Assembly: GCA_029255605.1 (NCBI GenBank)
Contig: JANLJF010000049.1
Span: 1 to 62,995 of the forward strand
DNA from: Azovibrio restrictus
GTDB taxonomy: Bacteria > Bacteroidota > Bacteroidia > Chitinophagales > Chitinophagaceae
Length of the DNA: 62,995 bases
Reading direction: 5' to 3'
In this document: positions 11,401 to 27,593 of the stretch, piece after piece
Layout: each line of letters begins with the position of its first letter
How positions within the stretch are numbered: the stretch's first letter is position 1
The notes under the pieces: generated by a model
What the model saw: only the letters and a program-made list of their open reading frames with translations
What the model was told of the DNA's origin: nothing
Database searches by the model: none
Position numbers and translations under genes: made by a program

Positions 11401-12333
11401 ATGCAGGAATTACCGGTAATTAGTTCAGTAGCAAACAGTACGGAAACAAGGGTAAAAAAGCCGAATTGGCTTAGGGTTAAATTGCCTACCGGCGAGGGCT
11501 ACCGCCATGTGCGCAACCTTGTTGATACACACAAACTTCATACAATATGCGAGAGTGGCAACTGTCCCAACATGGGTGAATGTTGGGGCGAGGGTACTGC
11601 TACTTTCATGATATTGGGCAATATATGCACACGCTCCTGCGGCTTCTGCGCCGTAGCTACGGGCCGTCCCGAACCGGTGGATTGGGATGAGCCGCAACGT
11701 GTAGCAGAGGCGATACACCTGATGAGTGTAAAGCATGCCGTTATCACTTCCGTTGACCGCGATGAACTGAAAGACGGGGGCTCTATCATCTGGGCCAATA
11801 CCATTAAGGCCGTTCGTGCTTTAAATCCTGATACTACTTTAGAAACACTGATACCGGATTTTCGCGGCCAATGGGAAAACCTGGAACGCATCATAGAAGT
11901 AGCGCCCGAGGTAGTTTCTCATAACTTGGAAACAGTAGAACGCATGACGCGCAAAGTGCGCATACAAGCTAAATACCACCGCAGCCTTGAAGTAATACGC
12001 CGCCTGAAGGATGGTGGTATGCGCACCAAGAGCGGCATTATGCTGGGCATTGGCGAGGAGAAAGAAGAAGTGCTGCAATCTATGCGCGACCTGGTAGAAA
12101 ATGGTTGCGATGTGCTGACACTGGGCCAATACCTGCAGCCTACACAAAAGCACTTACCGGTAATGCGCTTTGTGCATCCCGATGAGTTTGCATTTTACCG
12201 TGAAGAAGGCTATAAAATGGGCTTCGACTATGTAGAAAGTGGCCCGTTGGTTCGCTCTTCTTACCACAGCGAGCGCCACCTTATAAAAGGCGAGGGCCGC
12301 AGGGTGTGGGAAGAGCAAAGTGCTATTGCATAA
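11401..12333 (+). CDS. lipA: Lipoyl synthase
   Basis: 310-residue radical-SAM enzyme that inserts two sulfurs into protein-bound octanoyl groups to make lipoyl cofactor. The auxiliary cluster ligands are C50, C55 and C61 ([12 protein letters not shown]). The SAM-binding cluster is C76, C80 and C83 (CTRSCGFC). The C-terminal RSSY (285-288) supplies the serine ligand of the auxiliary cluster. All key residues are intact. lipB is not in the window. The 3' end overlaps the convergent membrane-protein gene by 11 bp. Confidence 0.96.
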
Positions 12334-12775
12334 TTTTTCTGAAAATAAAATAATCTTTTACGAACAGGGTGTCATAGTACACCCTGTTGCTTTTATAGTT
12401 GAAGCTCTGTTGCACCACCTGCTTCAAATCACCTTCTTTTCGTAAAACCAATACATCTCTACCTGGCGAAGCAGAATCAATTGGCTTTATATTGATGTAT
12501 GAATTGCAGGATGCAAATAGAAAACAAATGATACCTAGGCTGATGAGCATTTTAGGTTCTTTGTATCTTATGTAGAATAGCAATGGAATAAGGCTGAAAT
12601 AAAGAAATGGCATTAAGATAATGGATGCCACCCGAAGTTCGTAATAAGAAAAAGTCCAACTACTTATGATCGATTTACCTATAATCAGAAGTAGTATCAA
12701 TACACAAATAATAATCGGAATTCGTGTCTTCGAAGCACTGTTTGTTTTTATAGTATTAGTCTTAGGTCGTATCAT
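12323..12775 (-). CDS. Hypothetical membrane protein
   Basis: 150 residues. After a polar, Thr/Lys-rich N-terminus there are three hydrophobic segments (about 18-37, 48-70 and 75-92; [52 protein letters not shown]), then a roughly 55-residue soluble tail that is probably extracytoplasmic. The third segment ends in a lipobox-like FASC, probably by chance since it is internal. No family recognised. Convergent with lipA, 43 bp upstream of nothing on its own strand except the barrel gene at 12819. Confidence 0.55.
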
Positions 12776-12818
12776 GGAAAAATCCGTACCCTAATATAAG
12801 CAACATGTATGGTATTCT

Positions 12819-13517
12819 TTAAAATAACCTATACGCAACCCCAATGCCCGTATTGCGCATGCTAAGGGTAGAAGGGCCTGCTTCATCTGTTTTTACGCGC
12901 ATATCATACAGGCTGTGTTCATGATAAACGCTTACCGTATACCTGTCTTTCCATATATACCGGAGTTGAAACTTACATGCCACATCCAGCGCATCCACAT
13001 CGTACACATCAATGGCCGGACCATACTTTGATGGAGCTATACGTCCTTTCACTCTATAAGTAATGGTTGTCCGCTCTACCAATACGTCCCCTTTGTAGTT
13101 TGAATAGTCATGCACTGTTTTACCACCCACGAATATGCTATAGTTCATCCCGCCATCTATCCACAGTTTGCTTTTCCCCCATTCCATGGCTTTAAACGAT
13201 AACATCAGTGGTATCGATAAATACTGCAAACGTGTTCTGGTATCGTAGCTGTATTTAGTATCCCCATAATCTTCACCTTCCGTTGTATTATAGCCTCTGA
13301 ATGAATAGCCGATGCCGCTTTGTATAGAAAAACGTTTGGCAATAGGTGCTTCCAAATACACTATGGCATTGGGAACGATAATGGGATGATATGAGGAACG
13401 GATGTGGCGGCTTTGCACATAAGAAACACTGCTTCCGGCACCCACATTCAGGCTTATCTGCGCCCATGATAACATAGGCAGGATAGCGTTTAATAGTATC
13501 AGCAACAGTCTTTTCAT
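12819..13517 (-). CDS. Outer-membrane beta-barrel protein (PorT-like fold)
   Basis: 232 residues with a signal peptide (MKRLLLILLNAILPMLSWA, then QISLNVGAG). The rest is amphipathic strand with the Bacteroidota barrel pattern: RFSIQSGIGYSFRGYN, TRLQYLSIPLMLSFK, LWIDGGMNYSIFVGGK, and a terminal strand ending in a Phe (GIGVAYRLF). The block QYLSIPLML is typical of the outer-membrane PorT/OMP_b-brl_2 group. Probably a small surface or pore protein; ligand unknown. Confidence 0.7.
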   Translation of the reverse strand: MKRLLLILLNAILPMLSWAQISLNVGAGSSVSYVQSRHIRSSYHPIIVPNAIVYLEAPIAKRFSIQSGIGYSFRGYNTTEGEDYGDTKYSYDTRTRLQYLSIPLMLSFKAMEWGKSKLWIDGGMNYSIFVGGKTVHDYSNYKGDVLVERTTITYRVKGRIAPSKYGPAIDVYDVDALDVACKFQLRYIWKDRYTVSVYHEHSLYDMRVKTDEAGPSTLSMRNTGIGVAYRLF

Positions 13518-13633
13518 TTACGTCGGGCTCTTCCGTTTCGTCATACAATATTAAAACGATGCCAACACAATAATCTGCATATGTCTAAAAGCAACAATTA
13601 TTTTACATTCACCAGACAGTTGGCTGGCACGCC

Positions 13634-15241
13634 CTACAATCCACCGTAAACATGTAATATATCTATCAGGTCTGCCTTGGTATTGGCTTCTTTCGCCGGC
13701 TTATCCTTCCGCCATCTTAGTATGCGCGGAAACCGCAGCGCTACTCCCGATTTATGCCGCGACGAAGCATTGATTCCCTCAAACCCTATCTCAAACACCA
13801 ACTCGGGCGTTACGCTCCTTACAGGGCCAAATTTATCTGTGGTATGCTTTTTTATCCAGCGGTCCACTTCCAGCAGTTCTTTGTCTGTTAACCCCGAATA
13901 TGCTTTAGCAAATGGCACCAGTTCATCACCATCCCACACCGCAAAGGTGAAGTCAGTGTATAGGTCTGCACGCCGCCCATGCCCGCGTTGTCCGTATATC
14001 AGCACGCCGTCTATCGATAGCGGGTCTACTTTCCATTTCCACCAGTCGCCGCGTCGCCGCCCTGTTTTATACTCGCTGTCTTTACGTTTCAGCATCAGCC
14101 CTTCGCAATTATATTCGCGCGACTTCAGCCTTTGCGCCGCTACTTCTTCCCAGTTTTGGCATATCAGTACGGGCGATAGCCATAGCGGAATGTTGGCTTC
14201 TTTTTCTTTCACCGTTTCAATCAATTGCACCAGCAATTCCCTGCGTTGCATCAGCGATAGGTGCCTGATGTCCACCCCGTCATGCTCCAGCAGGTCGTAG
14301 CATACCATTACCAGCGGCGCTTCCGTCAGCGATTTTTTGGTCACATTCTTTCGTCCTATCCTCGTTTGCATTACATGGAAGGGCAGGAAATTTTCATCTT
14401 TTGCCGGGATGATTTCTCCGTCTATCACGGTGCCACTTGGCAGCAGCTTTGCCAATGGTTCAAATTCAATGAATTTCTCTGTCAGCAGGTCTTCACCGCG
14501 GCTCCATACAAAGAGCTGGTGATCGCGTACGATGATTTGGCCGCGTATCCCATCCATCTTCCGTTCTATTTGCCAGTCTTTTACATCGCCCAGTTCCTCG
14601 GGTGCAGTTTCCAATGCATAGGCCAGGTAAAAAGGGTAGGGCCGTGATATATCTGCCGCATCATGTGTTGCGCTCATCAGGGTATCCAGCAAGGTTTCAT
14701 TGGCCTGCCAGTTGCCTGTCAGCCTGTGCGCTACTATGTTCTCGTCTATGCTATATCGTTTCGCCAGTGCCTTTATGGTTATCTTGTCCGATACACCCAT
14801 ACGGAAGCCACCGGTTATCAGCTTGTTGAAAACAAATAACTCCTGTTGGCTTAGTTGCCGCCACATTCCAGTGATGTAGGCTTTACGCTGGTCATCTGTT
14901 TTATTTTCAAGGGCTATCAGGCTATTGATAACTTCATGTAGTGTATGCGATGTCTCGCCATCACTGCCTTTTAGCAGCAGGCTGATAGTTTCGGCCAGAT
15001 CGCCTACTACATGATACGATTCTTCCAACAGCCATACCGGTGTGCCGCTTGTTTCAGCACACCAGTCTCTTAGCTCACCCGATTTTATGGTGCGCCTGGG
15101 TGTTTTACCTGTTAATAGTGCAACGCACCATATCGCGTCTCTAGGGTCTGCATGCTCAAAATAGTCGGCCAATGCATCTATCTTCTCGTTGGTAGATGTC
15201 GTTTGATCTATGTGTGTAAACAGTTCACTAAATGCCCGCAT
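13634..15241 (-). CDS. ATP-dependent DNA ligase (exonuclease-associated type)
   Basis: 535-residue DNA ligase that seals nicks using ATP. Residues 1-200 are the N-terminal DNA-binding domain, the nucleotidyltransferase core follows with the adenylated lysine K228 in KMDG (228-231), and the OB domain fills the C-terminal 130 or so residues (motif V-like LMLKRKDSEYKTGRRRGDWWKWK). Length and N-terminal domain match the ligases that occur next to a metallo-beta-lactamase exonuclease. It overlaps that partner gene by 14 bp, so the two are coupled. The chromosome must also have the usual NAD-dependent LigA, not seen here, so this enzyme is likely for repair. Confidence 0.9.
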   Translation of the reverse strand: MRAFSELFTHIDQTTSTNEKIDALADYFEHADPRDAIWCVALLTGKTPRRTIKSGELRDWCAETSGTPVWLLEESYHVVGDLAETISLLLKGSDGETSHTLHEVINSLIALENKTDDQRKAYITGMWRQLSQQELFVFNKLITGGFRMGVSDKITIKALAKRYSIDENIVAHRLTGNWQANETLLDTLMSATHDAADISRPYPFYLAYALETAPEELGDVKDWQIERKMDGIRGQIIVRDHQLFVWSRGEDLLTEKFIEFEPLAKLLPSGTVIDGEIIPAKDENFLPFHVMQTRIGRKNVTKKSLTEAPLVMVCYDLLEHDGVDIRHLSLMQRRELLVQLIETVKEKEANIPLWLSPVLICQNWEEVAAQRLKSREYNCEGLMLKRKDSEYKTGRRRGDWWKWKVDPLSIDGVLIYGQRGHGRRADLYTDFTFAVWDGDELVPFAKAYSGLTDKELLEVDRWIKKHTTDKFGPVRSVTPELVFEIGFEGINASSRHKSGVALRFPRILRWRKDKPAKEANTKADLIDILHVYGGL

Positions 15242-16253
15242 CTTCCCCTCCTGTTGTTTCCGGTTCGTCCAGTTGCTCGCCTGTATATAGTGTTTCTACC
15301 TCCGTAGCATTCAGCCCATAGGCATCCTGCAGCCATTTTGCATAAACCGATTTATAACCGTGCGTTACATAAATATGCTCTGCTCCTGTTTCCTTTATCG
15401 CCGTGTTCAGTTGCCCCCAGTCTGCGTGGTCCGACAAAACAAAGCCCCTGTCTGCACCACGCCTGCGGCGCGTGCCGCGTAGCTGCATCCAGCCGCTGCA
15501 AATGCCCAGCTTATAAGGCTGCAGTTTGCGCAGCCACGGCGTGTTTTCTGCCGATGGAGGGGCAATGATGATATCGCCCTTTATATCTTTCGGGTTGATG
15601 CTGCTGTCAATACGCCTTGCAACTGGCAGCGGCTCAATTGCTGCCTCATACAGTTTGTTTATGTTATCTACTGCGCCATGTGTATATATGTTGCCGATAC
15701 TGGGGTCCAGGTGTTTATGTGTACGTTGTGCTTTACCTAGTGCATATCCCAGTATCACAGAGTTCTTGCCTTCTTCCCTGTTTTTACGCCACCAGTCATT
15801 AATATCATGGTGCACGGTTGCAGGGTCAGGAAAGTTATACACCGGTAGCCCAAAGGTGCTTTCGGTTATAAAATGATGACATCGCATCGGTTCAAATGGC
15901 ACAGAAATGCCATCTTCTCCCAATTTATAGTCACCGCTTACTACCCATATCTCTCCCTTGTATTCCAGCCGTACCTGTGCGCTGCCCCATATATGGCCGG
16001 CAGGGTGCAGGCTTATCTTCACGCCATTGATGGTAACAGGTTCATTATAGTCTGCTGTCTGCACCTCAATATCCTGCCCCAGGCGGTAACGCATTACAGG
16101 TGCTGCATGTATATGTGCCAGGTACTTCTTCATACCCCATCGGGCATGGTCGCTGTGCGCATGGGTAATGATGGCATTATCCACGGGTTTCCACGGGTCT
16201 ATATACACATCGGCCTGTGCGCAATAAATGCCGTTCTGGTTAAAAGTGAGCAT
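15228..16253 (-). CDS. Ligase-associated DNA exonuclease (metallo-beta-lactamase fold)
   Basis: 341 residues of the beta-CASP/SNM1-like metallo-beta-lactamase group. The metal motif HAHSDHARWG is at 31-40, with later ligands in PAGHIWGSAQV, VSGDYKLGED and HADWG/THGYKS. This family is known from a conserved repair cassette with an Lhr-type helicase, a ligase and a metallophosphoesterase. Here it is directly upstream of the ligase with a 14-bp overlap. The helicase and phosphoesterase are not in this window. Expected role: end trimming before sealing. Confidence 0.9.
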   Translation of the reverse strand: MLTFNQNGIYCAQADVYIDPWKPVDNAIITHAHSDHARWGMKKYLAHIHAAPVMRYRLGQDIEVQTADYNEPVTINGVKISLHPAGHIWGSAQVRLEYKGEIWVVSGDYKLGEDGISVPFEPMRCHHFITESTFGLPVYNFPDPATVHHDINDWWRKNREEGKNSVILGYALGKAQRTHKHLDPSIGNIYTHGAVDNINKLYEAAIEPLPVARRIDSSINPKDIKGDIIIAPPSAENTPWLRKLQPYKLGICSGWMQLRGTRRRRGADRGFVLSDHADWGQLNTAIKETGAEHIYVTHGYKSVYAKWLQDAYGLNATEVETLYTGEQLDEPETTGGEDAGI

Positions 16254-16388
16254 GTTATCGTCTCTTGGTTTATGCTATAAAAAAGCCTGCCGCCATACAA
16301 CAAGAAAAAAAATAAAAAGTTTATCATTCCTGCTGACACAGGGCTGTCACTACCTGCATGTTTCTTTGTATCATAAAACCACATACAT

Positions 16389-16919
16389 ATGCAAAACGTA
16401 CTTTCAAACACAGCACACGAAACACTTCATAGCTTAGCTAAAGATTATGCGGCCTATAACCTCTGGGCTGTCAATCAAATGGTTAACTGGCTGCGCGCAC
16501 ATCCGCAGGATATGATGGACACTGCCGTGCTTTCCAGTTTTAAAGGCATCAGGCAAACCATTACGCATATCATGAATACTCAGGACTGGTGGCAGGGTGT
16601 GCTGCAACACAATGCCGATGATAGTTTATATGGTCGCGAACATACCGGTAGTATGGAAGATTTGTATAACGATATCATTGGTCATTCACAGGCGTTTTTA
16701 GAATATGTTAATGCCCTTACCGAAGCAGAATTGAACGAAGTAGTGCCTTTCCGCATACCTTATGTGGGCGATTTTAAAGCGCCGCGCTACCAGATGATAC
16801 AGCATGCCGTCACACATGGTACTTACCATCGCGGGCAGGTTGTTACGATCGCGCACCATTTGGACATACACGATGCGCCGATGACAGATTACATGTTTTA
16901 TCTATTGATGGCAAAGTAA
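16389..16919 (+). CDS. DinB family protein
   Basis: 176 residues, four-helix-bundle DinB/YfiT fold with a three-His metal site: H60 (TITHIMNTQDWW), H143 and H147 (HAVTHGTYHRGQV). Such proteins include thiol-dependent S-transferases; the substrate here is unknown. The spacing H-x3-H in THGTYHRGQ is exactly that of the family. It is divergent from the exonuclease gene and ends at a strong hairpin (16936-16969), so it is its own transcription unit. Confidence 0.85.
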   Translation: MQNVLSNTAHETLHSLAKDYAAYNLWAVNQMVNWLRAHPQDMMDTAVLSSFKGIRQTITHIMNTQDWWQGVLQHNADDSLYGREHTGSMEDLYNDIIGHSQAFLEYVNALTEAELNEVVPFRIPYVGDFKAPRYQMIQHAVTHGTYHRGQVVTIAHHLDIHDAPMTDYMFYLLMAK

Positions 16920-16935
16920 AGCACGTCTCTTTGAT

Positions 16936-16969
16936 ATAAAAGCACTGGTGTTTTCACCGGTGCTTTTAT
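16936..16969 (+). terminator. Rho-independent terminator after dinB-like gene
   Basis: ATAAAAGCACTGGTG pairs with CACCGGTGCTTTTAT (one wobble pair) around a TTTT loop, 17 bp after the stop. The U-rich arm supports a terminator. Confidence 0.8.
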
Positions 16970-17040
16970 GTTGGTTATTATCGTAATTTTATAAGACAAA
17001 GGGGAAAGCGGGCGAAACCATATTTTAAAACACTTGAATA

Positions 17041-18048
17041 ATGGACAAGCCGGCACACGATTATTCTTATCTTAAAATGACCGAAGAGGCCTATACCCGG
17101 GCGTTGGTCGATGCCTTATCAGGTGATATATGCCTCGTAGATGGCAAGGGTTTTTTCTTAGGTGCGGTAGCCGATTTTAATAACGAAATATGCGCACCCC
17201 GCTATGTCAAATCCATAAAGGACCTGTATCCGGATGACCCTGAACTGGTCAAGTCCTTCCTGGAGAATATTAAGACCACCCTTGAAACAAAGAATACCCA
17301 CGTTTACCAGTACGAGGTAAAAACGCCGCTCAAAACCCGGCACAACGAAGCGCAGTTTTCATACCTGGGCGATGATAAGGTGCTGATAGTAAACAGGAAC
17401 ATTACGCCTATTATGGAATTGTCCTCTCGTGTATATGCCAACCAGGCTATCCTGAAGGCTATCATCGAGAATAACAACGATATGATTTTTGCGCTCGACC
17501 TGGAGATGCGCTATATCCTTTTCAATCCCGCACACAAACGCTCTATGAAGACAAGGTATGGTGTCGATATAAAAATAGGGACGCCTATGACCCGCTATGT
17601 GCGTGTTAATGAAGATGTAGGGTTAGGAATGAGTGTTTTTCAAAGGGTTATAAAAGGAGAAAGGGTCATTTTTGAAAGCGATTTTGGCACAGAGAGTATG
17701 TTTCGCGGGCATACACAATTGCATGTCTTCCCCCTGCTGGATGAAAGCAAAAAGATATTCGGTATCGCCGTATTTGCCAAAGATGTAACCGCACAGCACG
17801 AATTGCAGCAGCAGAAGGAGAATTATATAAAAATGATGGAATACCTCGTTTCCGACCTGTCGCACAAACTGAGGAAACCGGTAGCCACCATACTGGGCCT
17901 GGTGCAATTGGTAGATGAGGAGAAAAATATAAAAGACCTGCAGAAAATACTCTCTTACCTGCACGAATCTACTGCCGAATTGGATGAATGCATCCGGCAG
18001 ATGACGCAGTTTCTTGAAGATCATACGCGTACAGACGATACGAAATAG
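17041..18048 (+). CDS. Tandem PAS sensor ending in an H-box, no ATPase domain
   Basis: 335-residue cytosolic protein with no membrane segment. The two PAS-like sensor folds are at about 15-120 and 138-255 (the second starts AIIENNNDMIFALDLEMRYI and ends IFGIAVFAKDVTAQHE). A coiled linker leads to a helical-hairpin dimerisation domain with an H-box-like SHKLRKPVATILGL (H275) and a second helix through TAELDECIRQM. The protein stops there: no N-, G1- or G2-box, so no HATPase domain. It cannot autophosphorylate unless another kinase acts on it. The C-terminal 60 residues align with those of the protein at 27998. A role as sensor or phosphotransfer scaffold is inference. It overlaps nothing; the next gene starts 23 bp on. 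Confidence 0.75.
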   Translation: MDKPAHDYSYLKMTEEAYTRALVDALSGDICLVDGKGFFLGAVADFNNEICAPRYVKSIKDLYPDDPELVKSFLENIKTTLETKNTHVYQYEVKTPLKTRHNEAQFSYLGDDKVLIVNRNITPIMELSSRVYANQAILKAIIENNNDMIFALDLEMRYILFNPAHKRSMKTRYGVDIKIGTPMTRYVRVNEDVGLGMSVFQRVIKGERVIFESDFGTESMFRGHTQLHVFPLLDESKKIFGIAVFAKDVTAQHELQQQKENYIKMMEYLVSDLSHKLRKPVATILGLVQLVDEEKNIKDLQKILSYLHESTAELDECIRQMTQFLEDHTRTDDTK

Positions 18049-18070
18049 CTACATTCCTTATCTTAGGGTT

Positions 18071-18619
18071 ATGGAAACAACAACCTTAGGAATAGGCTCA
18101 CGTGTAGAACATCCGCACTTTGGCAAAGGCGTAGTGGTAGATGTATCAAGCGAAACATATACTATCTGGTTCAAATCGCAGAATGCAGCCAAAAGCATCA
18201 ATAAAGATTACGACTTGAAAATAATACAGGCTACAGAAGCCACTGCCGAAGGGCAGGCGTCCGGCATTACGTTATCTGATATTGAACAGGCACTGGATAA
18301 TATCCTGGAACGCCGCCTGCACGAAATGCAGATAGTGCCTATGGGCAACCGCTGGAATAATGGTACGCTCATACTGAAGCCCGGCGATGATACCCAAAGC
18401 AAAGAAGTGCCGCTTGAAACCTTCTTTCACAAAATAGTAATGGTACGCGACCGCATGCGCCTGATAGAACAAAAGATAAATGCGCATAAGGTGCTGACAC
18501 CTGAAGAAAAGGTAGACTTGCAGCAGTACGTCAGTGGCGTATATGGGTCGCTCACTACTTTTAATGTGCTATTCAAAGAAACACACCACCAGTTCAAAGG
18601 CGCAGGTGCAAAAGAATAA
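18071..18619 (+). CDS. Hypothetical protein with UvrD/PcrA-like Tudor start
   Basis: 182 residues. The first 55 residues (TLGIGSRVEHPHFGKGVVVDV, then YTIWFKSQNAAKSI) resemble the small beta-barrel Tudor-like domain found at the C-terminus of UvrD/PcrA helicases, which binds RNA polymerase. The remaining 125 or so residues are helical (TLSDIEQALDNILERRLHEMQ; LSDIEQ to DRMRLIEQKI) with no named family. The ATG at 18071 is chosen; an in-frame start 57 bp earlier overlaps the PAS gene and lacks the GxRVxHPxFGxG context. Soluble, probably nucleoid- or transcription-associated (inference). Confidence 0.65.
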   Translation: METTTLGIGSRVEHPHFGKGVVVDVSSETYTIWFKSQNAAKSINKDYDLKIIQATEATAEGQASGITLSDIEQALDNILERRLHEMQIVPMGNRWNNGTLILKPGDDTQSKEVPLETFFHKIVMVRDRMRLIEQKINAHKVLTPEEKVDLQQYVSGVYGSLTTFNVLFKETHHQFKGAGAKE

Positions 18620-18621
18620 AA

Positions 18622-18650
18622 AACAGCCTATCCAAAACGGGTAGGCTGTT
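18622..18650 (-). terminator. Terminator of the CsbD gene
   Basis: AACAGCCTATCC pairs with GGGTAGGCTGTT (one wobble) around AAAAC. On the minus strand it runs into TTTTTTATTC, so it mainly stops the CsbD transcript. Confidence 0.8.
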
Positions 18651-18671
18651 TCCGGTGACCCCTTATAGAGG

Positions 18672-18860
18672 CTATCCTAAAGATTTAAGCCATGTTACCA
18701 CTTCATCACGTGTTTTTCCAAGCTTCTGTTGCAGGCGGCCCAGCAGTTCGTCATCTTTACCTTCTTCATATCGCAAGTCATCGTCCGTCAGGTCGGCATG
18801 TGCTTGTTTTACCTTTCCTTTCAGTTCGTTCCATTTTCCTTTTAATTCCAGCTTGTCCAT
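18672..18860 (-). CDS. CsbD family stress protein
   Basis: 62 residues, highly charged and helical. The family signature is the start [26 protein letters not shown], then the [22 protein letters not shown] helix. CsbD proteins are small general-stress proteins, sigma-B dependent in Bacillus; the molecular function is unknown. It has its own terminator. The intergenic region to the divergent lipoprotein gene is 128 bp. Confidence 0.85.
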
Positions 18861-18988
18861 AGCAGTTAGTTTTCCCTATACTTTAAAATACTGTGCCACT
18901 ACCCGTTATCAATATTGTTATAACCTTGTTAATACATGTTTACGTCATTTAGCTATGGCATACTTGTTGCCCTTACCTGTTTAACAAG

Positions 18989-19639
18989 ATGACGACGATG
19001 AAACAACTTAAGACATTAGCACTGGTATTGGCAGGTAGCCTGTTACTTACTTCCTGTATAAAAAATGAATATTACGAAACCAACCCTAATACCCAGCAAC
19101 CCATAGGGTATCAGAATATATTTGATGATAATTTCGACTACGATGCGCACAACTGGTCTTTCAGTGATGCATCGAATGACGCGTATGTAAGTGTAGGTGG
19201 TGGCCGGCTGAAGTATGAATACAACCCTCCCGGTGAAGGCACCAATACGGTAGCCATCAATACGGGTGTGAATGTGAACCGCGACTTTTTAATACAGTCA
19301 CGCATTAGCTCCAACAATGCTATGGGTATCGCCTTTGGAGTATCCAACAGCGATTACGGTTACTCTTTCTTTATAGACGACCAGGGATACTTTGCGGTGT
19401 ATAGGGAAGGCAACGCCAGCACGCCTGTAAAGACGATTATCGACTGGCAGTATAATGCTGCCATCCTCACCGGCTGGAATAATATAGAATTTGAACAGGT
19501 GGGTAATTATTGGCTGGGATATGTAAACGGCACCAAACTTTTTGAAATACCCGCACAGAATTTATACGGCTCGAAGACAGGATTTATAACACTGGCAGGC
19601 ACTACCGGCTATGCCGATTACCTGACAGTGCAATGGTAA
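18989..19639 (+). CDS. Lipoprotein with a concanavalin-like sandwich
   Basis: 216 residues. The signal sequence ends in the lipobox LLLTSC, so the mature protein is a lipid-anchored Cys followed by KNEYYETNPN. The rest (NIFDDNFDYDAHNWSFSD, DFLIQSRISSNNAMGIAFGV, YADYLTVQW) has the layout of a jelly-roll, Laminin G/concanavalin-like domain seen in many Bacteroidota surface glycan-binding proteins. A second ATG at 18998 would also give a proper signal peptide. Ligand unknown. Confidence 0.7.
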   Translation: MTTMKQLKTLALVLAGSLLLTSCIKNEYYETNPNTQQPIGYQNIFDDNFDYDAHNWSFSDASNDAYVSVGGGRLKYEYNPPGEGTNTVAINTGVNVNRDFLIQSRISSNNAMGIAFGVSNSDYGYSFFIDDQGYFAVYREGNASTPVKTIIDWQYNAAILTGWNNIEFEQVGNYWLGYVNGTKLFEIPAQNLYGSKTGFITLAGTTGYADYLTVQW

Positions 19640-19677
19640 TCATAGCATATTAGAAAGTTTTAGTTTAGTACAATGAC

Positions 19678-19713
19678 AAAATCCCTTGTATCTTAGATAT
19701 CAGGGATTTTTTT
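19678..19713 (+). promoter_or_regulatory. Terminator-like hairpin whose U-tract ends at the next gene's ATG
   Basis: AAAATCCCT pairs with AGGGATTTT across a 15-nt loop that contains its own TATC/GATA pairing, then seven Ts run directly into the ATG at 19714. A TAGTTTAG -7-like box lies just upstream at 19661-19668. It can be a terminator for the lipoprotein gene, a 5' structure of the LOG mRNA, or both. Confidence 0.6.
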
Positions 19714-20481
19714 ATGGACAAAGAATTAAATGGCAAGAATTTTACCCCGGTAGGCTCAAAACAGGAAGCGGTTTTTTTAGATGGTCCCAGTTCGCGGTGG
19801 AAAGAGTTGATGTTCCTTTTCAAGGTAATGAAGCAGTTTATCCATGGTTTCAGGAAGCTGCATTTTGTGGGGCCGTGTGTCACCGTGTTCGGTTCCGCCC
19901 GTTTCGACGAGTCGCACCCTTATTATCAATTGGCACGCGAGGTAGGGGCCGAGGTTTCTAAAATCGGTTTTGCTGTAATGACCGGTGGCGGCCCCGGTAT
20001 TATGGAAGCGGCCAACCGTGGCGCGCAGGAAGCCGGTGGTTTTTCATTGGGCTGCAATATTGTGCTGCCTAAAGAGCAAAAGCCAAACCCATACCTCGAT
20101 CATTGGGTCGATTTCGAATACTTCTTTGTGCGCAAAACACTGCTCAGCAAATATTCCTACGCCTTCATCGTAATGCCCGGCGGCTATGGCACACTCGATG
20201 AGTTTTTTGAAGCGATCACCCTGATACAAACAGGCAAGTTTCAGAAGTTTCCCATTGTACTGATGGGGAAAGAATATCACCGCGACCTGTATGTGCATGT
20301 GCAGAATATGGTAAAGAATAAAACGATTGCAGATAAGGACCCCGAGCTGTTCCTGTTTACCGATTCGGTTGAAGAGGCTATAGCGCATATTCAGAAGCAT
20401 GCGATAGAGGGCTTTGGGCTTAAAAAGACCAAGCGCTACAGGCCGGTACGCATACTGGGCGAGCGCAGAATGTGGAGATAA
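19714..20481 (+). CDS. LOG family (TIGR00730-type) phosphoribohydrolase
   Basis: 255 residues, Rossmann-like fold. The LOG signatures are GGGPGIMEAANRGA (91-104) and PGGYGTLDE (155-163), with the RK pair in FFVRKTLL at 140-141. Family enzymes hydrolyse N6-substituted AMP (cytokinin-type) or plain nucleoside monophosphates to base plus ribose phosphate. The N-terminal 50 residues precede the core and resemble no special domain. A hairpin ends at the stop at 20484-20509. Confidence 0.9.
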   Translation: MDKELNGKNFTPVGSKQEAVFLDGPSSRWKELMFLFKVMKQFIHGFRKLHFVGPCVTVFGSARFDESHPYYQLAREVGAEVSKIGFAVMTGGGPGIMEAANRGAQEAGGFSLGCNIVLPKEQKPNPYLDHWVDFEYFFVRKTLLSKYSYAFIVMPGGYGTLDEFFEAITLIQTGKFQKFPIVLMGKEYHRDLYVHVQNMVKNKTIADKDPELFLFTDSVEEAIAHIQKHAIEGFGLKKTKRYRPVRILGERRMWR

Positions 20482-20483
20482 AA

Positions 20484-20509
20484 ACAAGGCTTGCATATAC
20501 AAGCCTTGT
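20484..20509 (+). terminator. Hairpin after the LOG gene
   Basis: ACAAGGCTTG pairs perfectly with CAAGCCTTGT around CATATA, 2 bp past the stop. The T-run after it is weak. The 166 bp from here to the next gene hold no clear gene; a 43-codon open frame at 20539-20670 has no support. Confidence 0.6.
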
Positions 20510-20675
20510 ATGGATGGTTTGGAAATGTTTTAAGGCAAATGGGCTACGGAATGAGTGATATGATTCTCTGTATGCCACACAAAGGTGCCGGCTCAATATT
20601 AAGCCGCAGTTACGGGAATATTAATTCAACGTTTTCATATAACAATAATCCAATTTCCTCTGCGTTTTAAAATGT

Positions 20676-21068
20676 ATGAAGATTTTTAAAAGCATTGCAC
20701 TAATTGCAGGAGTGGTATTTGTATTGGCTATAGCCTTGCTGCTTACCAGCTTTGTTACTTCCATGATTCCCGGCAAAAGCAAGCGCGAACGCTCCACTAA
20801 AGTCACCGGTATACTCCATCATGCCTTTGGCGGCGAATCAACTCATGATATATCTCTCTACACATCAGTCGATAGCGGCAATAGTTATTATATCAATCGG
20901 GGCTTAGAGTATATCGCCTTAGCCGATATAACAGCGCTTAAAGGTAAACCCGTAGATATCTATTACTACAGGCATGGTTTTAGCTTGCTCGATTTTAATG
21001 ACAAGCTGCGTCATGTTACGGAGATTCGTGTAGGTGATAAAGTGATTTACACCGAACTGGTAGATTAA
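20676..21068 (+). CDS. Membrane-anchored hypothetical protein
   Basis: 130 residues with one N-terminal helix (about 4-30, SIALIAGVVFVLAIALLLTSFV) and a soluble region that is probably periplasmic. The sequence KREKRSTKVTGI-like linker leads to mostly beta residues (HDISLYTSVDSGNSYYINRG and KGKPVDIYYYR). No family recognised. It overlaps the pentapeptide gene by 4 bp tail to tail. Confidence 0.55.
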   Translation: MKIFKSIALIAGVVFVLAIALLLTSFVTSMIPGKSKRERSTKVTGILHHAFGGESTHDISLYTSVDSGNSYYINRGLEYIALADITALKGKPVDIYYYRHGFSLLDFNDKLRHVTEIRVGDKVIYTELVD

Positions 21069-21640
21069 TTCTCTATTTCGATGTGATATTTGAATAGCAG
21101 CCCCGGTAAGCCATACATCGAAAACTTAGCATTGCGTATGCGGTTTATTTCCGGGTCTATCATATAGTTCGCGGCCGTTCTCAGGTCGGCATTTTCAAGC
21201 AGGGTATTTTCAAATACGGCACCATTCAGGTTGCACCCTTCAAAGCTGGCATCTTTCAATTCTGCTGATACAAAATCTACTTCTTCCAGGTTGCAGTTGA
21301 TAAAATGGGTGCCATGTATTTTTAGCTGGTAGAAGGATGAAAAATTCAATTGGCAATTTGTAAAACGAAAGGATAAAAGGAAATCATTACAGTTGCTGAA
21401 TTGCAATCCTAATAGTTTACACCCGTTGAACTGTATATTGCTCAATGTAGTTTTCACCAGCTTGCAGTTACTCAGGTCGCAATTCTCAAAGCTGCAATCG
21501 CGAAACAGGTAGCCCGATAGGTCTGCACCGGAAAATTGGCAATCGGTAAAGCTACAGCCCTCATATTCGCCCTTAGGCAATGGTTCTGCCCTGTAGTCGG
21601 TACCTGTAAATGTTTCATTTTCTGTAAATACGTCCTTCAT
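21065..21640 (-). CDS. Pentapeptide-repeat protein
   Basis: 191 residues. Repeats of the form A(D/N)Lxx, with Leu or Phe at the centre, run from about 25 to 165: GCSFTDCQFSGADLSGYLFRDCS, FENCDLSNCKLVKTTLSN, CNLEEVDFVSAELKDASFEGCNLNGAVF. They form a right-handed quadrilateral beta-helix. Some family members mimic DNA to protect topoisomerases (Qnr), but no Qnr features were checked. Cys is used unusually often at the repeat positions. Its function is unknown. Confidence 0.85.
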   Translation of the reverse strand: MKDVFTENETFTGTDYRAEPLPKGEYEGCSFTDCQFSGADLSGYLFRDCSFENCDLSNCKLVKTTLSNIQFNGCKLLGLQFSNCNDFLLSFRFTNCQLNFSSFYQLKIHGTHFINCNLEEVDFVSAELKDASFEGCNLNGAVFENTLLENADLRTAANYMIDPEINRIRNAKFSMYGLPGLLFKYHIEIEN

Positions 21641-21682
21641 ACATTTGCTTTCTGCATTAAAGCTAACGATTTACATACAATG

Positions 21683-21710
21683 CTAAAGGCAGGAGATATC
21701 CTGCCTTTAG
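21683..21710 (-). terminator. Perfect 12-bp hairpin between pentapeptide and L,D-transpeptidase genes
   Basis: CTAAAGGCAGGA pairs with TCCTGCCTTTAG around GATA. It lies just past the L,D-transpeptidase stop (21734) on the minus strand. The U-tract is weak on both strands. Confidence 0.6.
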
Positions 21711-21733
21711 TTTATGAAGGGTTAAGCGAATTA

Positions 21734-22597
21734 TTATTGTTTATTAGCAGTAAGGGCATCACGTTGTTTCTGTTTTTTTAGTATTTCCTGCTTGTGCGGG
21801 CTTACCAGTTGCGCTATTGTTTCCTTGCTGATGTCTAATGCATCGGGGTTATTAGCCAGTGCATACCAGGGCTTCGGCCCGCCAAACGGGTAGCTGCCGA
21901 ATACGATAACAGGTGTGCCATATGCTTTAATATGATCATTACCTTCCAGCTTCCATTCATCGGCCCAGCCATACAGGTATTTCGCATCATCTATCAGCAG
22001 GCGCAGGCAAGAGTGTGATGCCGGGTAGCCCGGCATATCATACAGGTGCCAGCCCACACCTTCTTTATTAGCTATATTGAAATTCCATTTTAGTATCCAC
22101 TCATCATCCACTGTGCTCACGGTTTCCTCTGCCTTCCAGTTGGTAAAGAAAAGCCCGGTAGGTGTCTGGTCTCTTTCGCGGCCCATATTGGTAGGCCCCC
22201 AGCGTACCAGCTTGCCGTTTTCATACGCACCGAATGCCTGTACCGGATAAGAAAAGAATACGATCTTATGAATATCGCTAAGCGCTGCCACATAGTAAGG
22301 GAAAGGGGAGTAGTGGTTCAGGTTGCTCTCAAACTTATCAGGCACCACCAGGCTATCCACCCTTAGCATATGGTTCTTATCCACGCGGTTCACGGCCATG
22401 ATTACCGACAGTTGCGCATCTGTAAATAATTGCTTTATGCTGTCCGGTGCTACTCCTTTCACCGGTTGTATATGATACCGGATGGCTATCTTCTCAAACT
22501 TTGGTTCTTGTTCCGTTTGTTGCTGCGCGCTGTTCTCAGTACAGCTCATAGCTGTCATCGATAAAGCAGCAACAAGGGCTAATGTTCTTATCTGCAT
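21734..22597 (-). CDS. L,D-transpeptidase (YkuD) lipoprotein
   Basis: 287 residues. The N-terminus has a lipobox SMTAMSC (lipid-anchored C19). The YkuD catalytic motif is YPASHSCLRL with H195 and nucleophile C197; the more common glycine of SHGC is a serine here (S196), as in a family branch I recall in Bacteroidota. Such enzymes cross-link peptidoglycan or attach lipoproteins to it. A long N-terminal region (about 25-130) is not assigned. Placement next to a terminator suggests a single-gene unit. Confidence 0.8.
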   Translation of the reverse strand: MQIRTLALVAALSMTAMSCTENSAQQQTEQEPKFEKIAIRYHIQPVKGVAPDSIKQLFTDAQLSVIMAVNRVDKNHMLRVDSLVVPDKFESNLNHYSPFPYYVAALSDIHKIVFFSYPVQAFGAYENGKLVRWGPTNMGRERDQTPTGLFFTNWKAEETVSTVDDEWILKWNFNIANKEGVGWHLYDMPGYPASHSCLRLLIDDAKYLYGWADEWKLEGNDHIKAYGTPVIVFGSYPFGGPKPWYALANNPDALDISKETIAQLVSPHKQEILKKQKQRDALTANKQ

Positions 22598-22643
22598 GAT
22601 TTACACCCATATAAATTCATGCCAGCAGTTGTTATGGAAAACA

Positions 22644-23126
22644 TTAGGTAGTAGCTACATAGCCACTCCTGCGTATGCGCAGGTAGCTGTACACCAGCAT
22701 CAAAAGCAGCAGTACATCTCTGCCTTCTGTATAGTTGTCGTCGGTTTCTATATCATATTCAAAACTCATGTTCGACCAGCTGAAGTCCGACTGTAGGGTG
22801 ATGATGCCAAACTCTTCGCGCGTATAAAGTGTGTATTTGGTATGCCAGAAGTTGGGGCGCAGCAAGTATTGCCCGCCATCTGTCATTTCTATAATGATAT
22901 TGCCTGCCCAATTAAATTTTAATTCGGCACATACTACATCTTCACGGCTCACTTCTATTTTGTTCTGCCAAAAGTTTACAGGGTGTATTTCATAGTGCGC
23001 ATCGGCTATATTGATGCTTACTTTTTTCCTGAAAAAACCATCAAAGTCCAGCCTTCCTAATACATTATCCTGCTCATCAAAAAGCTCGAAATACTCCATG
23101 CGTTTTCCCCGTGCTACATATCTCAT
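22644..23126 (-). CDS. Hypothetical protein, LURP/tubby-like barrel
   Basis: 160 residues, soluble, largely beta. The pattern KRMEYFELFDEQDNVLGRLDFDGFF with repeated EIHPVNFWQNKIEV and GGQYLLRPNFWHTKY strands is reminiscent of the closed beta-barrel of scramblase/LURP-type proteins, but this is only a structural guess. The C-terminus has a hydrophobic stretch (GRDVLLLLMLVYSYLRIRR) of one possible helix. It is divergent from the DUF5995 gene. A perfect -7 box lies 18 bp upstream. Confidence 0.55.
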   Translation of the reverse strand: MRYVARGKRMEYFELFDEQDNVLGRLDFDGFFRKKVSINIADAHYEIHPVNFWQNKIEVSREDVVCAELKFNWAGNIIIEMTDGGQYLLRPNFWHTKYTLYTREEFGIITLQSDFSWSNMSFEYDIETDDNYTEGRDVLLLLMLVYSYLRIRRSGYVATT

Positions 23127-23143
23127 AGGTCTGTGGTTTTAGC

Positions 23144-23151
23144 CAAATGTA
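23144..23151 (-). promoter_or_regulatory. -7 element of the gene at 22644
   Basis: Minus-strand TACATTTG. The expected start near 23137 leaves a leader of about 11 nt. The plus-strand TTAATTTG at 23153-23160 could serve the divergent DUF5995 gene, so the two promoters nearly abut. Confidence 0.5.
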
Positions 23152-23176
23152 TTAATTTGTATCAATAATCTGCCTT

Positions 23177-23989
23177 ATGCCATCACAAACCATAGATGAA
23201 GTAATTGCCGAACTGGAAGGTATCATTCAGCAATGTATAGATACCAATAACAGGGCAGGGTATTTTGCTGCATTGTATCATCGCGTTACCTGCCGCATAA
23301 AGGATGGCATTGCGAATGATGAGTTTGAAGATGGCACACGTATGGAGCGGCTCGATGTATTGTTTGCCAATCGCTACATAGATGCATGGAAGCAATGGTG
23401 TGCAGGACAGCAACCAACAGCCTCCTGGCGCATTGCTTTTGAGGCCGCACAACACAAAGGCATCATCATGCAGCACCTGCTGCTGGGTATCAATGCACAC
23501 ATCAACCTCGATCTTGGCATTGCGACTGCAGAAACGATGTATGGCTATCCTATTGCCGGCATTCAAAAAGACTTCAATACCATTAACACAGTACTCGCTT
23601 CATTGATAAGCGTGGTGGAACAGGAAATATTTAAACTGTCGCCACTGATGTTTCTGCTCGATACCGTTGGCAAAAATTTTGATGAAATGCTGGTGGAATT
23701 CAGCATCCATACTGCCCGGCAGGGAGCATGGCAGTTTGCGGTAGAATTATCGGGTAAAACAGGTGCAGATTACACTACTTGCATATCCGTGCGCGATGCA
23801 GCAATAGCCAACCTCGCCACCAATCTCGCTACACCCAAAGGAAAGTTTTTCGCATTCATCATAAAGGTCATTGGTTGGTTTGAATGGAAACAACCGGGTA
23901 AATGTATAGAAACACTACGCTACGTAACAAAGAAAGCCGCGGAAAACATAGCACCACCAATCACCATAACAAAAGCCGTCACATCGTAA
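23177..23989 (+). CDS. DUF5995 family protein
   Basis: 270 residues, mostly helical and soluble. Recognised as DUF5995 by the combination YFAALYHRVTCRIKDGI, ERLDVLFANRYIDAW and HKGIIMQHLLLGINAHINLDLGIA; the conserved His/Asn/Asp residues of the last stretch (HINLDLG) look like metal ligands or catalytic residues (inference). Function unknown. Its stop is about 50 bp before a GC-rich repeat and the convergent topoisomerase gene. Confidence 0.75.
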   Translation: MPSQTIDEVIAELEGIIQQCIDTNNRAGYFAALYHRVTCRIKDGIANDEFEDGTRMERLDVLFANRYIDAWKQWCAGQQPTASWRIAFEAAQHKGIIMQHLLLGINAHINLDLGIATAETMYGYPIAGIQKDFNTINTVLASLISVVEQEIFKLSPLMFLLDTVGKNFDEMLVEFSIHTARQGAWQFAVELSGKTGADYTTCISVRDAAIANLATNLATPKGKFFAFIIKVIGWFEWKQPGKCIETLRYVTKKAAENIAPPITITKAVTS

Positions 23990-24040
23990 CGGCTTTTGGT
24001 ACCAAATAATATATATATCATAAACATAACCCCAAACACA

Positions 24041-24074
24041 CCTCCTCCCCTTGGGGGAGGCCGGGAGGGGCCCC
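24041..24074. repeat. GC-rich palindromic intergenic repeat
   Basis: CCTCCTCCCCTTGGGGGAGG followed by CCGGGAGGGGCCCC. CCTCCCC (24044-24050) pairs with GGGGAGG (24054-24060), and a second arm carries GGGGCCCC. The sequence lies between convergent genes and touches the parE stop. From memory, near-identical sequences recur between genes in many Bacteroidota genomes. I saw only one copy here. Confidence 0.6.
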
Positions 24075-25961
24075 TTAAGCTGTCAGCTCTTCCGCCAGAT
24101 CTTTTTCCACCCTCAGCCCGGCAATAATATCCTGCTGGCGTTGTGGCGTGTTCTTACCCATAAAGTATTCCAGCAACTCTTTTATTTTCGTTTCCTGCCC
24201 CAGCAATACCGGTTCTTTACGCATATCGTCGCCTATAAACTGTGCAAACTCTTCCGGGCTTATCTCACCCAACCCTTTAAATCGTGTTATCTCCGGTTTG
24301 CTGCCCAGTTCGGCTATGGCGTTCCTGCGTTCTTCATCCGTATAGCAGTATATGGTCTTCTGCTTATTCCGCACACGGAATAGTGGTGTTTCCAGTATAT
24401 ACACATGCCCGTTCTTCACCAGGTCGGGGAAGAATTGCAGGAAGAAAGTCATGATAAGCAGGCGTATGTGCATACCATCCACATCGGCATCGGTGGCAAT
24501 TACTATGTTATTGTAGCGCAGGCCATCCAAGCCTTCTTCTATATTCAGTGCATGCTGTAGCAGGTTGAACTCTTCATTCTCGTACACTATTTTCTTCGTC
24601 AGCCCGTAGCAGTTCAGTGGTTTACCCCGCAGGCTGAATACTGCTTGCAGTTCCACGTTGCGGCTCTTGGTAATGCTACCGCTCGCACTATCACCTTCGG
24701 TTATGAAGATGGTGCTTTCCAGTTGCTTCTGCTGAAATTCTTCTTTGCCTTTGTTGGGTGGTTCTGCATTCAGGTGTATGCGGCAGTCGCGCAGTTTCTT
24801 GTTGTGCAGGTTGGCTTTCTTCGCGCGTTCATTGGCCAGCTTGCGTATGCCCGATAGTTCCTTGCGTTCACGCTCGCTTTGTTCTATACGTTTTTTCAGT
24901 GCATCGGCTACGCTGCTGTTTTTGTGCAGGTAGTTATCGAGCTCTTTGGCCAGGAAGTCCAGCACAAAAGATTTCATGCTCGGCCCGCCTTCCGATACAT
25001 ATTGCGAACCCAGCTTGGTTTTCGTTTGCGATTCAAACACCGGTTCTTGTACCCGTACAGATATCGCCGCGCAGATGCTCTGGCGGATGTCTGTAGCATC
25101 ATAGTCTTTCTTGTAGAAGTCACGTACTACTTTCACAAATGCCTCGCGAAATGCTGCCTGGTGGGTACCGCCCTGCGTAGTATGTTGCCCGTTCACAAAA
25201 GAGTACAGGTCTTCGCCATAGTCGCCCGTGTGGGTGATGGCTACTTCTATATCATTCCCTTTCAGGTGTATGATAGGGTAGCGGCATGTTTCGGGATTGG
25301 TTTTGCGTTGCAGCAGGTCCAGCAGCCCGTTTTTCGATACATAGTTCCGGCCGTTCAGGTTTATCTGCAGCCCTGCATTCAGGAAGCAGTAGTTCCATAC
25401 CTGGTTCTCTATGTAGTCATTTATAAAATGATAATGCTTGAAGACGCTGTCATCGGGTGTAAAGGTCACCAGCGTACCGTTGTTTTCGGTAGTAGCGGTT
25501 TCTTTGTGCTCTTTTATCAGTACGCCTTTTTCAAACTCCGCTTCTTTCATCTTGCCATCCCTGAAGGCGGCCACTTTAAAATAGCTGCTCAGCGCATTCA
25601 CTGCCTTCGTACCTACCCCGTTCAAACCCACCGATTTCTGGAAGGCTTTGCTATCATACTTCGCACCGGTGTTTATCTTGCTCACCACGTCCACCACTTT
25701 ACCCAGCGGTATGCCACGGCCATAGTCGCGTATGGTTACACTGCCTTTGTCTATTTTTACCTCTACGCGTTTGCCATAGCCCATCGTGTATTCATCAATA
25801 CAGTTGTCTATCACCTCCTTTATCAGTATGTAGATGCCGTCATCCATACTGCTGCCGTCGCCCAGCTTTCCTATATACATACCGGGACGCAGCCTGATGT
25901 GCTCGCGCCAGTCCAGCGACCGTATACTATCTTCCGTGTATTGATTCAATTGTTCTGCCAT
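24075..25961 (-). CDS. parE: DNA topoisomerase IV subunit B
   Basis: 628-residue ATPase subunit of topoisomerase IV, which decatenates and relaxes DNA with ParC. The GHKL domain motifs are DNCIDE (52-57), DYGRGIPLG (79-87) and [13 protein letters not shown] (112-124). The TOPRIM domain has EGDSASG (422-428) and [10 protein letters not shown] (491-500). The start at 25961 ([18 protein letters not shown]) is preferred because residues before it are low-information, and a perfect -7 box sits 21 bp upstream. parC is not adjacent here, unlike in many Bacteroidota. It could be a GyrB paralogue, but length and insert-poor TOPRIM fit type IV. Confidence 0.9.
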
Positions 25962-25981
25962 CTCTGTTCCTGCTTTGGCTG

Positions 25982-25989
25982 CAAAGATA
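25982..25989 (-). promoter_or_regulatory. -7 element of parE
   Basis: Minus-strand TATCTTTG followed by CAGCC, the canonical Bacteroidota -7 context. Transcription would start near 25975, 14 nt before the ATG at 25961, which supports that start. No -33 TTTG at good spacing. Confidence 0.55.
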
Positions 25990-26069
25990 GCCGCTGCGAT
26001 CAAAATCAGGTACTTAACTTCTCTAAACCCAACCCCGAATGTGGATATGTAGAAAAAATAGAATAGGTA

Positions 26070-26627
26070 TTACCCGCAGGAAACCCGCTCAAATAACTGG
26101 TTATAATATGTGACGGTCATATCATCATCCACCGTTATGTCTGCCATAAAACTGCCATCTTCGGTGCTAAAGCGGTAGGTGTCTTCCGTCAGCCGGGTGT
26201 AATGCTGGGTGGTAGCATAGAGTGTACATGCCTGTATATCTGCATATAATACTTTTATTTCACCTGTTTCTCCCGGCTGCAAGGCCAGTTTACGGATGGC
26301 CAGTGTATTCGTAAAAGGCGTCAGCGATATATCTATAGCTTCGCAGCCTGCTGCTACTATGGTGTTATCGGCGCTGTTATACCAGTTGCCGTTATCATCG
26401 GTCACAAATGTTTGCAGGTCCAGCTGTGGCGAAAGGTTGTTTTGAATACTGAAGGAGCCTATTTGGCGGCTTGCTTGCAGGTCTATGGCATAGTCTATGT
26501 TAAAGGGTTGTCCTTCCTCGCAGCCCACTATAGTGCCCCGCACTGTAATGCCACTTTCGCCATAGGCAATACAGCAACACTCCATTGATGGGTACATCAA
26601 TCCCTTCCAGACGATCGTTTGTGTCAT
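26070..26627 (-). CDS. Putative glycolipid-binding domain protein (PF06475-like)
   Basis: 185 residues. Matches the putative glycolipid-binding family (former DUF1089) by its ordered blocks: an opening TIVWKGLMYPSMECCCI, VRGTIVG, then GCEAIDISLTPFTNTLAIRKL, QPGETGEIKVLYAD, QHYTRLTEDTYRF and a C-terminal TVDDDMTVTYYNQLFERV. No signal peptide. Three adjacent cysteines (ECCC, residues 16-19 or so) are unusual and could bind a metal. The start abuts the stop of the small membrane gene with no gap (TAAATG), so the two are coupled. Confidence 0.7.
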   Translation of the reverse strand: MTQTIVWKGLMYPSMECCCIAYGESGITVRGTIVGCEEGQPFNIDYAIDLQASRQIGSFSIQNNLSPQLDLQTFVTDDNGNWYNSADNTIVAAGCEAIDISLTPFTNTLAIRKLALQPGETGEIKVLYADIQACTLYATTQHYTRLTEDTYRFSTEDGSFMADITVDDDMTVTYYNQLFERVSCG

Positions 26628-26843
26628 TTATGATTTGTTTCTCGCCCCGAGTATCAGCAGGCCCACACCTGCTACGGCCACTACACCACCTATATACATA
26701 GGCCAGTTTACGCTGTGCTCTTTTTCTTTGTTTATTTCTATGGGGCCAAGCTGGGCCACTTCTTCTTTCGTCGTGAAGTTGAATCCATTAATTATCAGCA
26801 TCAAAATGCCTATTGCTAATAATATACCACCTAAAATTTTCAT
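26628..26843 (-). CDS. Small two-helix membrane protein (DUF3185-like)
   Basis: 71 residues with helices at about 3-22 (ILGGILLAIGILMLIINGF) and 48-67 (WPMYIGGVVAVAGVGLLILGA) joined by a polar linker with QLGPIEINKEKEHSV. This helix, GPIE-(I/V)-xKE, helix layout is that of the DUF3185 family. Directly upstream of and touching the glycolipid-binding-family gene. Function unknown. Confidence 0.65.
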   Translation of the reverse strand: MKILGGILLAIGILMLIINGFNFTTKEEVAQLGPIEINKEKEHSVNWPMYIGGVVAVAGVGLLILGARNKS

Positions 26844-26932
26844 TATAACTTCTTTTTATAATGCCTCAATAAAATAGTGCCATGATGCTGCGCACCTGTT
26901 TGGCATCAAGTTTTTAACGAACTTTAAGTATT

Positions 26933-27589
26933 ATGAAGTTGATAGTAACAGGAGCTACGGGAACTACAGGTTCAGAGGTGATAAGGCAGGCGTTGAAAGA
27001 TGATACGGTCACGGCCGTTACTGCTATCTGCCGCCGACAGCCCGATGTGGCACATCCCAAGCTCACTACGGTCATTCATAAAGACTTTCTCGATTATACC
27101 GGGCTCGATAGTATTTTCAAATCGCACGATGCCTGCATCTGGTGCCTGGGTGTTTCTTCACAACAGGTAAATGAAGAACAGTATGAGGTAATTACACACA
27201 TGTATACCGTAAAGGCAGCGCAGGCTATGTTGCATGCCAACCCCGGTATCGACTTTATATTTCTTAGCGGCGAGGGTGCTGATGTATTGGAGAAAAGCCG
27301 GCAAATATTTGCCCGTATAAAGGGTAAAACCGAGAACGACCTGTCTAAACTATCATTTGGCAGCCTGCATATGGCAAGGGCGGGTGCCATATGGCCCGTA
27401 AACGATAATCCAGGTCAGCATTTTCTCTACAAATTATTTCGTCCGTTATTACCTGTTATCGACTTGCTTTCGCCTTCCGCTGTCATCAGGGCCGATATAT
27501 TGGCACGGGCCATGATAAACCTGGCGAAGAATGGCCACATGCAACGAGTGCTTGAAAATGAAGATTTGAAAAAACTGGGTGCGGAATAG
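26933..27589 (+). CDS. NAD(P)-binding atypical SDR
   Basis: 218 residues with a Rossmann fold. The nucleotide loop TGATGTTG is at 6-13. There is no classical YxxxK catalytic pair; KGKTENDL near 130 and the hydrophobic FLSGEGAD strand resemble the atypical HTATIP2/TIP30-like NAD(P)H-binding group. Substrate and partner unknown. It ends 5 bp before the stop of the convergent SemiSWEET gene. Confidence 0.75.
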   Translation: MKLIVTGATGTTGSEVIRQALKDDTVTAVTAICRRQPDVAHPKLTTVIHKDFLDYTGLDSIFKSHDACIWCLGVSSQQVNEEQYEVITHMYTVKAAQAMLHANPGIDFIFLSGEGADVLEKSRQIFARIKGKTENDLSKLSFGSLHMARAGAIWPVNDNPGQHFLYKLFRPLLPVIDLLSPSAVIRADILARAMINLAKNGHMQRVLENEDLKKLGAE

Positions 27590-27593
27590 CTGT

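Follow-up and report, generated by a model that had tools for sequence, protein, structure and literature searches.

The locus and its genes

The window, by which we mean the whole stretch of 62,995 nucleotides that was analysed, is contig C49 of a 3.27-Mb genome that is 99% complete. The gene under study (the target) is an uninterrupted open reading frame of 335 codons, from ATG to TAG and free of frameshifts, and in this respect the gene is intact, as a sequence-only reading of this DNA had stated. The target, its parts, its surroundings and a second, related gene in the window are listed here:

16936-16969 (+): inverted repeat, a terminator-like hairpin with 15-nt arms between the DinB gene and the target
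17041-18048 (+): the target, a 335-aa sensor gene with the order (degenerate PAS?)-PAS-DHp and no HATPase (ORF and Pfam)
17083-17415 (+): possible first PAS, residues ~15-125 (sequence reading only)
17470-17802 (+): PAS_4 domain, residues 144-254 (Pfam, 34.1 bits; cut-off 23.1)
17836-18009 (+): HisKA/DHp hairpin, residues 266-323 (Pfam, 32.9 bits, and two-helix model)
17863-17865 (+): codon of the predicted phospho-acceptor His275, in the H-box (sequence; His invariant in the family)
18071-18619 (+): downstream 182-aa gene after a gap of 22 bp, with weak PcrA/UvrD-tudor similarity; not a two-component protein
18621-18651 (+): inverted repeat, a possible terminator after the two-gene unit
27998-29677 (+): second family member, with a REC-like domain, three PAS and a DHp (SHKVRNHV); the chain ends 57 aa past the H-box

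The target is preceded by the DinB gene and followed by the 182-aa gene, a core gene, and no REC, kinase or regulator gene lies beside it. Because a hairpin precedes the target and an inverted repeat follows the 182-aa gene, these two genes may be transcribed together as a unit. The 182-aa gene, whose UvrD/PcrA-tudor-like similarity is at its start and which is conserved across the order, was considered as a partner of the target and dropped, as 33 of 39 relatives carry it and hardly any of these have the target. Elsewhere in the window, an ATP-dependent DNA ligase gene overlaps a metallo-beta-lactamase-fold gene by 14 nt (13634-16253, minus strand), and the two resemble a ligase-associated exonuclease pair.

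The target is accessory within the genus: among 15 members, its own genome included, a close ortholog was found only in its own genome and in one other (G011). A search of genome contigs for related loci gave a near-identical contig only. It is also under strong purifying selection. The two orthologs differ at 34 synonymous and 2 nonsynonymous positions (dS 0.158, dN 0.0025, dN/dS about 0.016), both nonsynonymous changes fall at residues 36 and 38 and none in the DHp, and the stop codon is at the identical position in both genomes.

Domain anatomy of the target

The sequence-only reading had described two PAS domains followed by an H-box hairpin with His275, a second helix and the stop codon. 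The second PAS was confirmed by the PAS_4 match. The first one can be given as a possibility only, since it had no match in the Pfam scan and the single-sequence AlphaFold model of the full-length protein was too poor to judge it (pLDDT 38). The hairpin was borne out by both sequence and model. HisKA (PF00512) matches over profile positions 2-59 of 66, with 32.9 bits against a gathering score of 26.9, and His275, the predicted phospho-acceptor, is followed by Lys276, Leu277, Arg278, Lys279 and Pro280 (HKLRK). In a shallow AlphaFold model, residues 245-335 form a two-helix hairpin (mean pLDDT 82; helices at about 246-295 and 298-330) with His275 in helix 1, and the chain stops 60 residues past this His. 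The HisKA match lies far beyond chance, because curated cut-offs are passed and the module recurs, with its His invariant, in 98 short-tailed ORFs. When the hairpin model was used as a Foldseek query, CpxA structures ranked first, at E 0.075 and above (not significant) and interspersed with unrelated helical hairpins, so that this ranking is consistent with a DHp and does not prove one. Sequence searches against solved structures gave a weak histidine kinase match for the target and moderate ones for the family profile; Spo0B was absent from the matches of both. Pfam reported no Hpt domain (PF01627) in the target at E<=1.

No HATPase was detected in the target ORF by Pfam, even at E<=1, which agrees with the reported lack of N, G1 and G2 boxes. 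To cover an ATPase half in another frame, the flanks were searched with a profile built for this analysis from the HATPase domains of sensor kinases against ORFs of at least 60 aa in all six frames, and none was found within about 5 kb (window positions 12000-23500) or in positions 24000-34000. Pfam finds HATPase_c only once in the window, in a gyrase/topoisomerase B (GyrB/ParE) gene 6 kb off (24075-26003, minus strand). Elsewhere in the genome there are 36 HATPase matches, a count that is unsorted by chain type, and none adjoins the target. With its end so close to the His, the chain does not hold a degenerate ATPase-like C-terminal domain either. The target thus has neither the HATPase with its N, G1 and G2 boxes nor the acidic residue after the His (H-E/D-x-x-T/N) of a histidine kinase, and the earlier statement that it cannot be a normal one is correct. 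What it does have, a sensor domain and a C-terminal HisKA with its His but no HATPase, places it in the class of HisKA proteins without HATPase.

A Bacteroidota-wide family of DHp-only proteins

To look for a family of such proteins, we built a profile (A2) of the C-terminal module from 15 sequences. The target is one of its rows and scores 95.2 bits against it by construction. At E<=1e-8 the profile matched in 125 of 395 sampled genomes of the phylum, some of the weak matches being ordinary kinases, and at E<=1e-15 in at least 37 genomes among the matches listed. Members were defined by a profile match, the His and an Arg at H+3, and a tail under ~80 aa; the target, with a tail of 60 aa, has all of these. 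Loci were sampled as 94 fetched stretches. The His was present in 94 of 94 profile matches and then in 108 of 108 in the combined set, so a family lacking the His, which would have spoken against the sequence-only reading, was not what we found. HATPase was absent from all 98 of these 108 ORFs that have a tail shorter than 95 aa and present in all of the remaining ten, which are long-tailed. Short-tailed members end about 51-80 aa after the His (median 60 aa). In 79 aligned full-length members only H275 and R278 are invariant, and S274, P280 and D315 are almost so. Pfam assigned HisKA to 47 of the 79, individual PAS types to up to 46 each, Response_reg to 19, GAF to 14 and TPR to a few; HATPase_c is not among their 25 commonest Pfam families.

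In a tree of the DHp, which is coarse as it is built on 82 columns only, the 96 family rows form one branch (support 100/93) that also holds two doubtful, long-branched kinases, and the target falls in a subclade of about 20 (support 95/97). The target's own genome encodes eight family ORFs, all of which stop 54-61 residues past the H-box: two on C49, both in the window, one each on C63, C104 and C85, and three on C61. Profile and tree both place the second member in the window within the family; its HisKA is below the Pfam cut-off (22.6 vs 26.9 bits), as is its divergent REC-like domain. The family is therefore large and Bacteroidota-wide, and the target is no one-off. It is also poorly described: we found no account of the family, its H-box signature or the gene cassette reported below in the open-access literature, a restriction that makes this absence weak evidence.

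Several members or near-members are unusual. The ORF at L179:4123-5952 (+) has a family-like H-box, SHYMRKPVASLLGL, and carries a HATPase in a tail of 353 aa; it lies on a long branch inside the family and may be a kinase that was retained or has been regained, or its position may be an artefact of the tree. At L167:6607-7632 (+) the N-terminal half consists of about nine tandem repeats of ~24 aa (NKELxFQNxEKxKRAAEL-like), presumably a coiled-coil rod that replaces the sensor domain. At L106 (G000:C61:1-6000) two members lie in tandem at 1-315 and 380-1219, the first cut by the contig end.

H-box residues

In tested HisKA domains an acid at H+1 is needed for autokinase activity and a Thr or Asn at H+4 for phosphatase activity, independently of each other (PMC3510030). 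The H+1 acid is present in 25 of 96 family rows, against 38 of 43 HATPase-bearing histidine kinases of the same loci (p = 3e-12). At H+4, Asn is found in 4 of the 96 rows and Thr in none. The target has Lys at both positions. Judging from these two residues, kinase and phosphatase functions appear to be mostly lost in the family. With the His and Arg kept under strong constraint, the remaining known chemistry would therefore be phosphate exchange between the His and the Asp of a receiver.

Receiver genes beside family members

Same-strand REC genes occupy 34 of 164 slots immediately next to family members, compared with 12 of 458 other slots of the same loci; the corresponding p = 3e-12 is generous because related genomes were counted. 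About four in five family neighbour slots are not REC. In 19 of 85 members a REC is part of the same chain, and the phospho-Asp and Lys columns are each kept in 72 of 72 aligned receivers. A recurrent operon consists of a complete kinase, a REC of ~140 aa, a REC-PAS-DHp protein of ~340 aa and a REC of ~130 aa. It is full at seven loci (L126, L140, L144, L147, L152, L157 and L158) and partial at six (L122, L128, L131, L139, L166 and L143), in genomes of several Bacteroidota taxonomic families. At L126:93-5369 (+) Pfam identifies all four genes, as HisKA+HATPase, Response_reg, Response_reg+PAS+HisKA and Response_reg; the DHp-only protein of this cassette is encoded at 3867-4925. This layout is what a His-Asp-His-Asp relay would look like if the DHp-only protein supplied the second His. 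Three relatives with the order GAF-PAS-DHp in the subclade of the target (L110-L112) have a REC 48-49 bp upstream. As the target has no REC neighbour, its partners would have to be encoded elsewhere; its genome has 42 REC matches, several of them in ORFs of 125-156 aa, and single-domain RECs lie on C27, C57, C61, C75 and C137.

A proposed phosphotransfer module and its alternatives

Three roles had been suggested from the sequence: a phosphotransfer module, a dimeric scaffold, or a protein phosphorylated in trans by another kinase. The first is the best supported, because relatives have receiver genes as neighbours and occur in the HK-REC-[REC-PAS-DHp]-REC operon. We give a probability of roughly 55% to the reading that the target is a dimeric phosphotransfer module of the Asp->His->Asp type, which is gated by its PAS domain and draws its phosphate from phospho-receivers instead of ATP. 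The target would be a soluble PAS sensor whose C-terminus pairs two hairpins into a dimeric four-helix DHp bundle. A separate, complete kinase would charge a stand-alone REC, the aspartate of which would give its phosphoryl group to His275; His275 would hand it to another receiver, or back, and the PAS domain would set the efficiency or the direction of the transfer. We assume here that the target behaves like its relatives, though it has no receiver neighbour. Besides this missing neighbour and the many neighbour slots of the family that are not REC, it counts against transfer that the invariant His might in principle serve folding or docking of the REC, and that the ATPase-like domain of Spo0B and ChpT is missing here.

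A non-enzymatic scaffold or decoy is an unlikely, if still serious, alternative. The DHp would dimerise and bind receivers, or hetero-dimerise with complete kinases, and so sequester or tune them on a PAS signal while carrying no phosphate. The absent CA domain, the lost catalytic neighbours of the His and the many orphan members with varied sensor domains would all fit; such a protein would not need its His, yet the His is invariant across a highly diverged, phylum-wide family.

We consider it improbable that the target is half of a split kinase, with His275 phosphorylated in trans by the ATPase domain of another protein in the way that CheA4 phosphorylates CheA3. Such kinases exist, 3.66% of HisKA proteins in a SMART count are without HATPase (PMC3591291), and complete histidine kinases are encoded near some members. 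However, trans phosphorylation is made less likely by the Lys that replaces the H+1 acid in the target, a position that is non-acidic in 71 of 96 members (for the requirement, see PMC3510030). Furthermore, few members are flanked by a HATPase ORF that has no REC (6 of 148 and 1 of 40 slots), and in the cassettes that were checked the kinase upstream is complete and has a HisKA of its own. To much the same degree we doubt that the target is a phosphatase whose DHp by itself removes phosphate from a receiver, an activity proposed for archaeal HisKA proteins without HATPase (PMC5847659). HisKA domains can have phosphatase activity and the idea is already in the literature, but the target has Lys in place of the Thr or Asn that is required at H+4, and these residues are nearly absent from the family, as given above. 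Finally, the target does resemble a kinase cut after the DHp, and close orthologs of it are confined to 2 of the 15 members of the genus that were searched, but a decayed or truncated kinase (pseudogene, frameshift or assembly error) is most improbable given the purifying selection, the stop shared by two genomes, the similar tails across the family and the lack of a HATPase remnant downstream; purifying selection and the six-frame search together rule out a pseudogene, a frameshift or a HATPase in another frame.

Extending the phosphotransfer reading to the phylum, we suggest tentatively, and with less than even odds, that a DHp lost the ATPase half together with the two catalytic side activities in a single early origin in Bacteroidota and became a sensor-controlled phosphotransfer domain (a "signal-gated HPt"). 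This domain would serve both in relays of the kinase-REC-[REC-PAS-DHp]-REC layout and in many orphan PAS, GAF or TPR sensors that tap phosphate from shared receivers or inject it into them. Many Bacteroidota genomes encode several such proteins, which are easily mistaken for histidine kinases despite having no ATP-using part, and counting them as kinases misstates the wiring of signalling. If these proteins are phosphotransferases gated by a sensor, a phosphorelay takes in information at its middle step as well as at the kinase. The four-gene cassette supplies ready cognate partners, and the role of HATPase-less HisKA proteins can therefore be tested in vitro.

Comparison with known systems

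Both the class of HisKA proteins without HATPase and DHp phosphotransferases such as Spo0B and ChpT are already known. HPt domains, usually monomeric four-helix bundles with a different motif, have the role proposed here, a His relay between receivers; the target matches HisKA and not Hpt (PF01627). Spo0B, the phosphotransferase of Bacillus sporulation, has an extra, degenerate ATPase-like C-terminal domain and no PAS sensor, and differs from the target in both. As in our proposal, it is a dimeric phosphotransferase built on DHp hairpins, and it takes phosphate from a REC Asp (PMC5231405, Table 6). ChpT of Caulobacter is likewise a DHp-based phosphotransferase, incapable of autophosphorylation; unlike the target, it keeps an atypical Bergerat-fold domain (PMC3433190) and has no sensor. 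In CheA3/CheA4 of R. sphaeroides, which are of the CheA type, the His and ATPase domains are on separate chains and ATP-dependent phosphorylation in trans was shown, whereas the target is without the residue needed for it.

The target also resembles the "possible incomplete histidine kinases" of archaea and P2CS, which have, like the target, N-terminal PAS or GAF domains and a C-terminal HisKA with its His but no HATPase. In P2CS, HisKA proteins that have neither a HATPase nor a receiver are counted among the phosphotransfer proteins (PMC2716373), and for the archaeal ones, in which the His is conserved, phosphotransfer or phosphatase activity was suggested without experiment (PMC5847659). The archaeal census also lists REC-(PAS)n-HisKA forms, as found in the Bacteroidota family (PMC5847659). 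The archaeal class is mainly from Archaeoglobi and Methanomicrobia, and receiver-linked operons are undescribed in its census (PMC5847659), whereas the family reported here is Bacteroidota-wide, has an H-box signature of its own and occurs in such operons.
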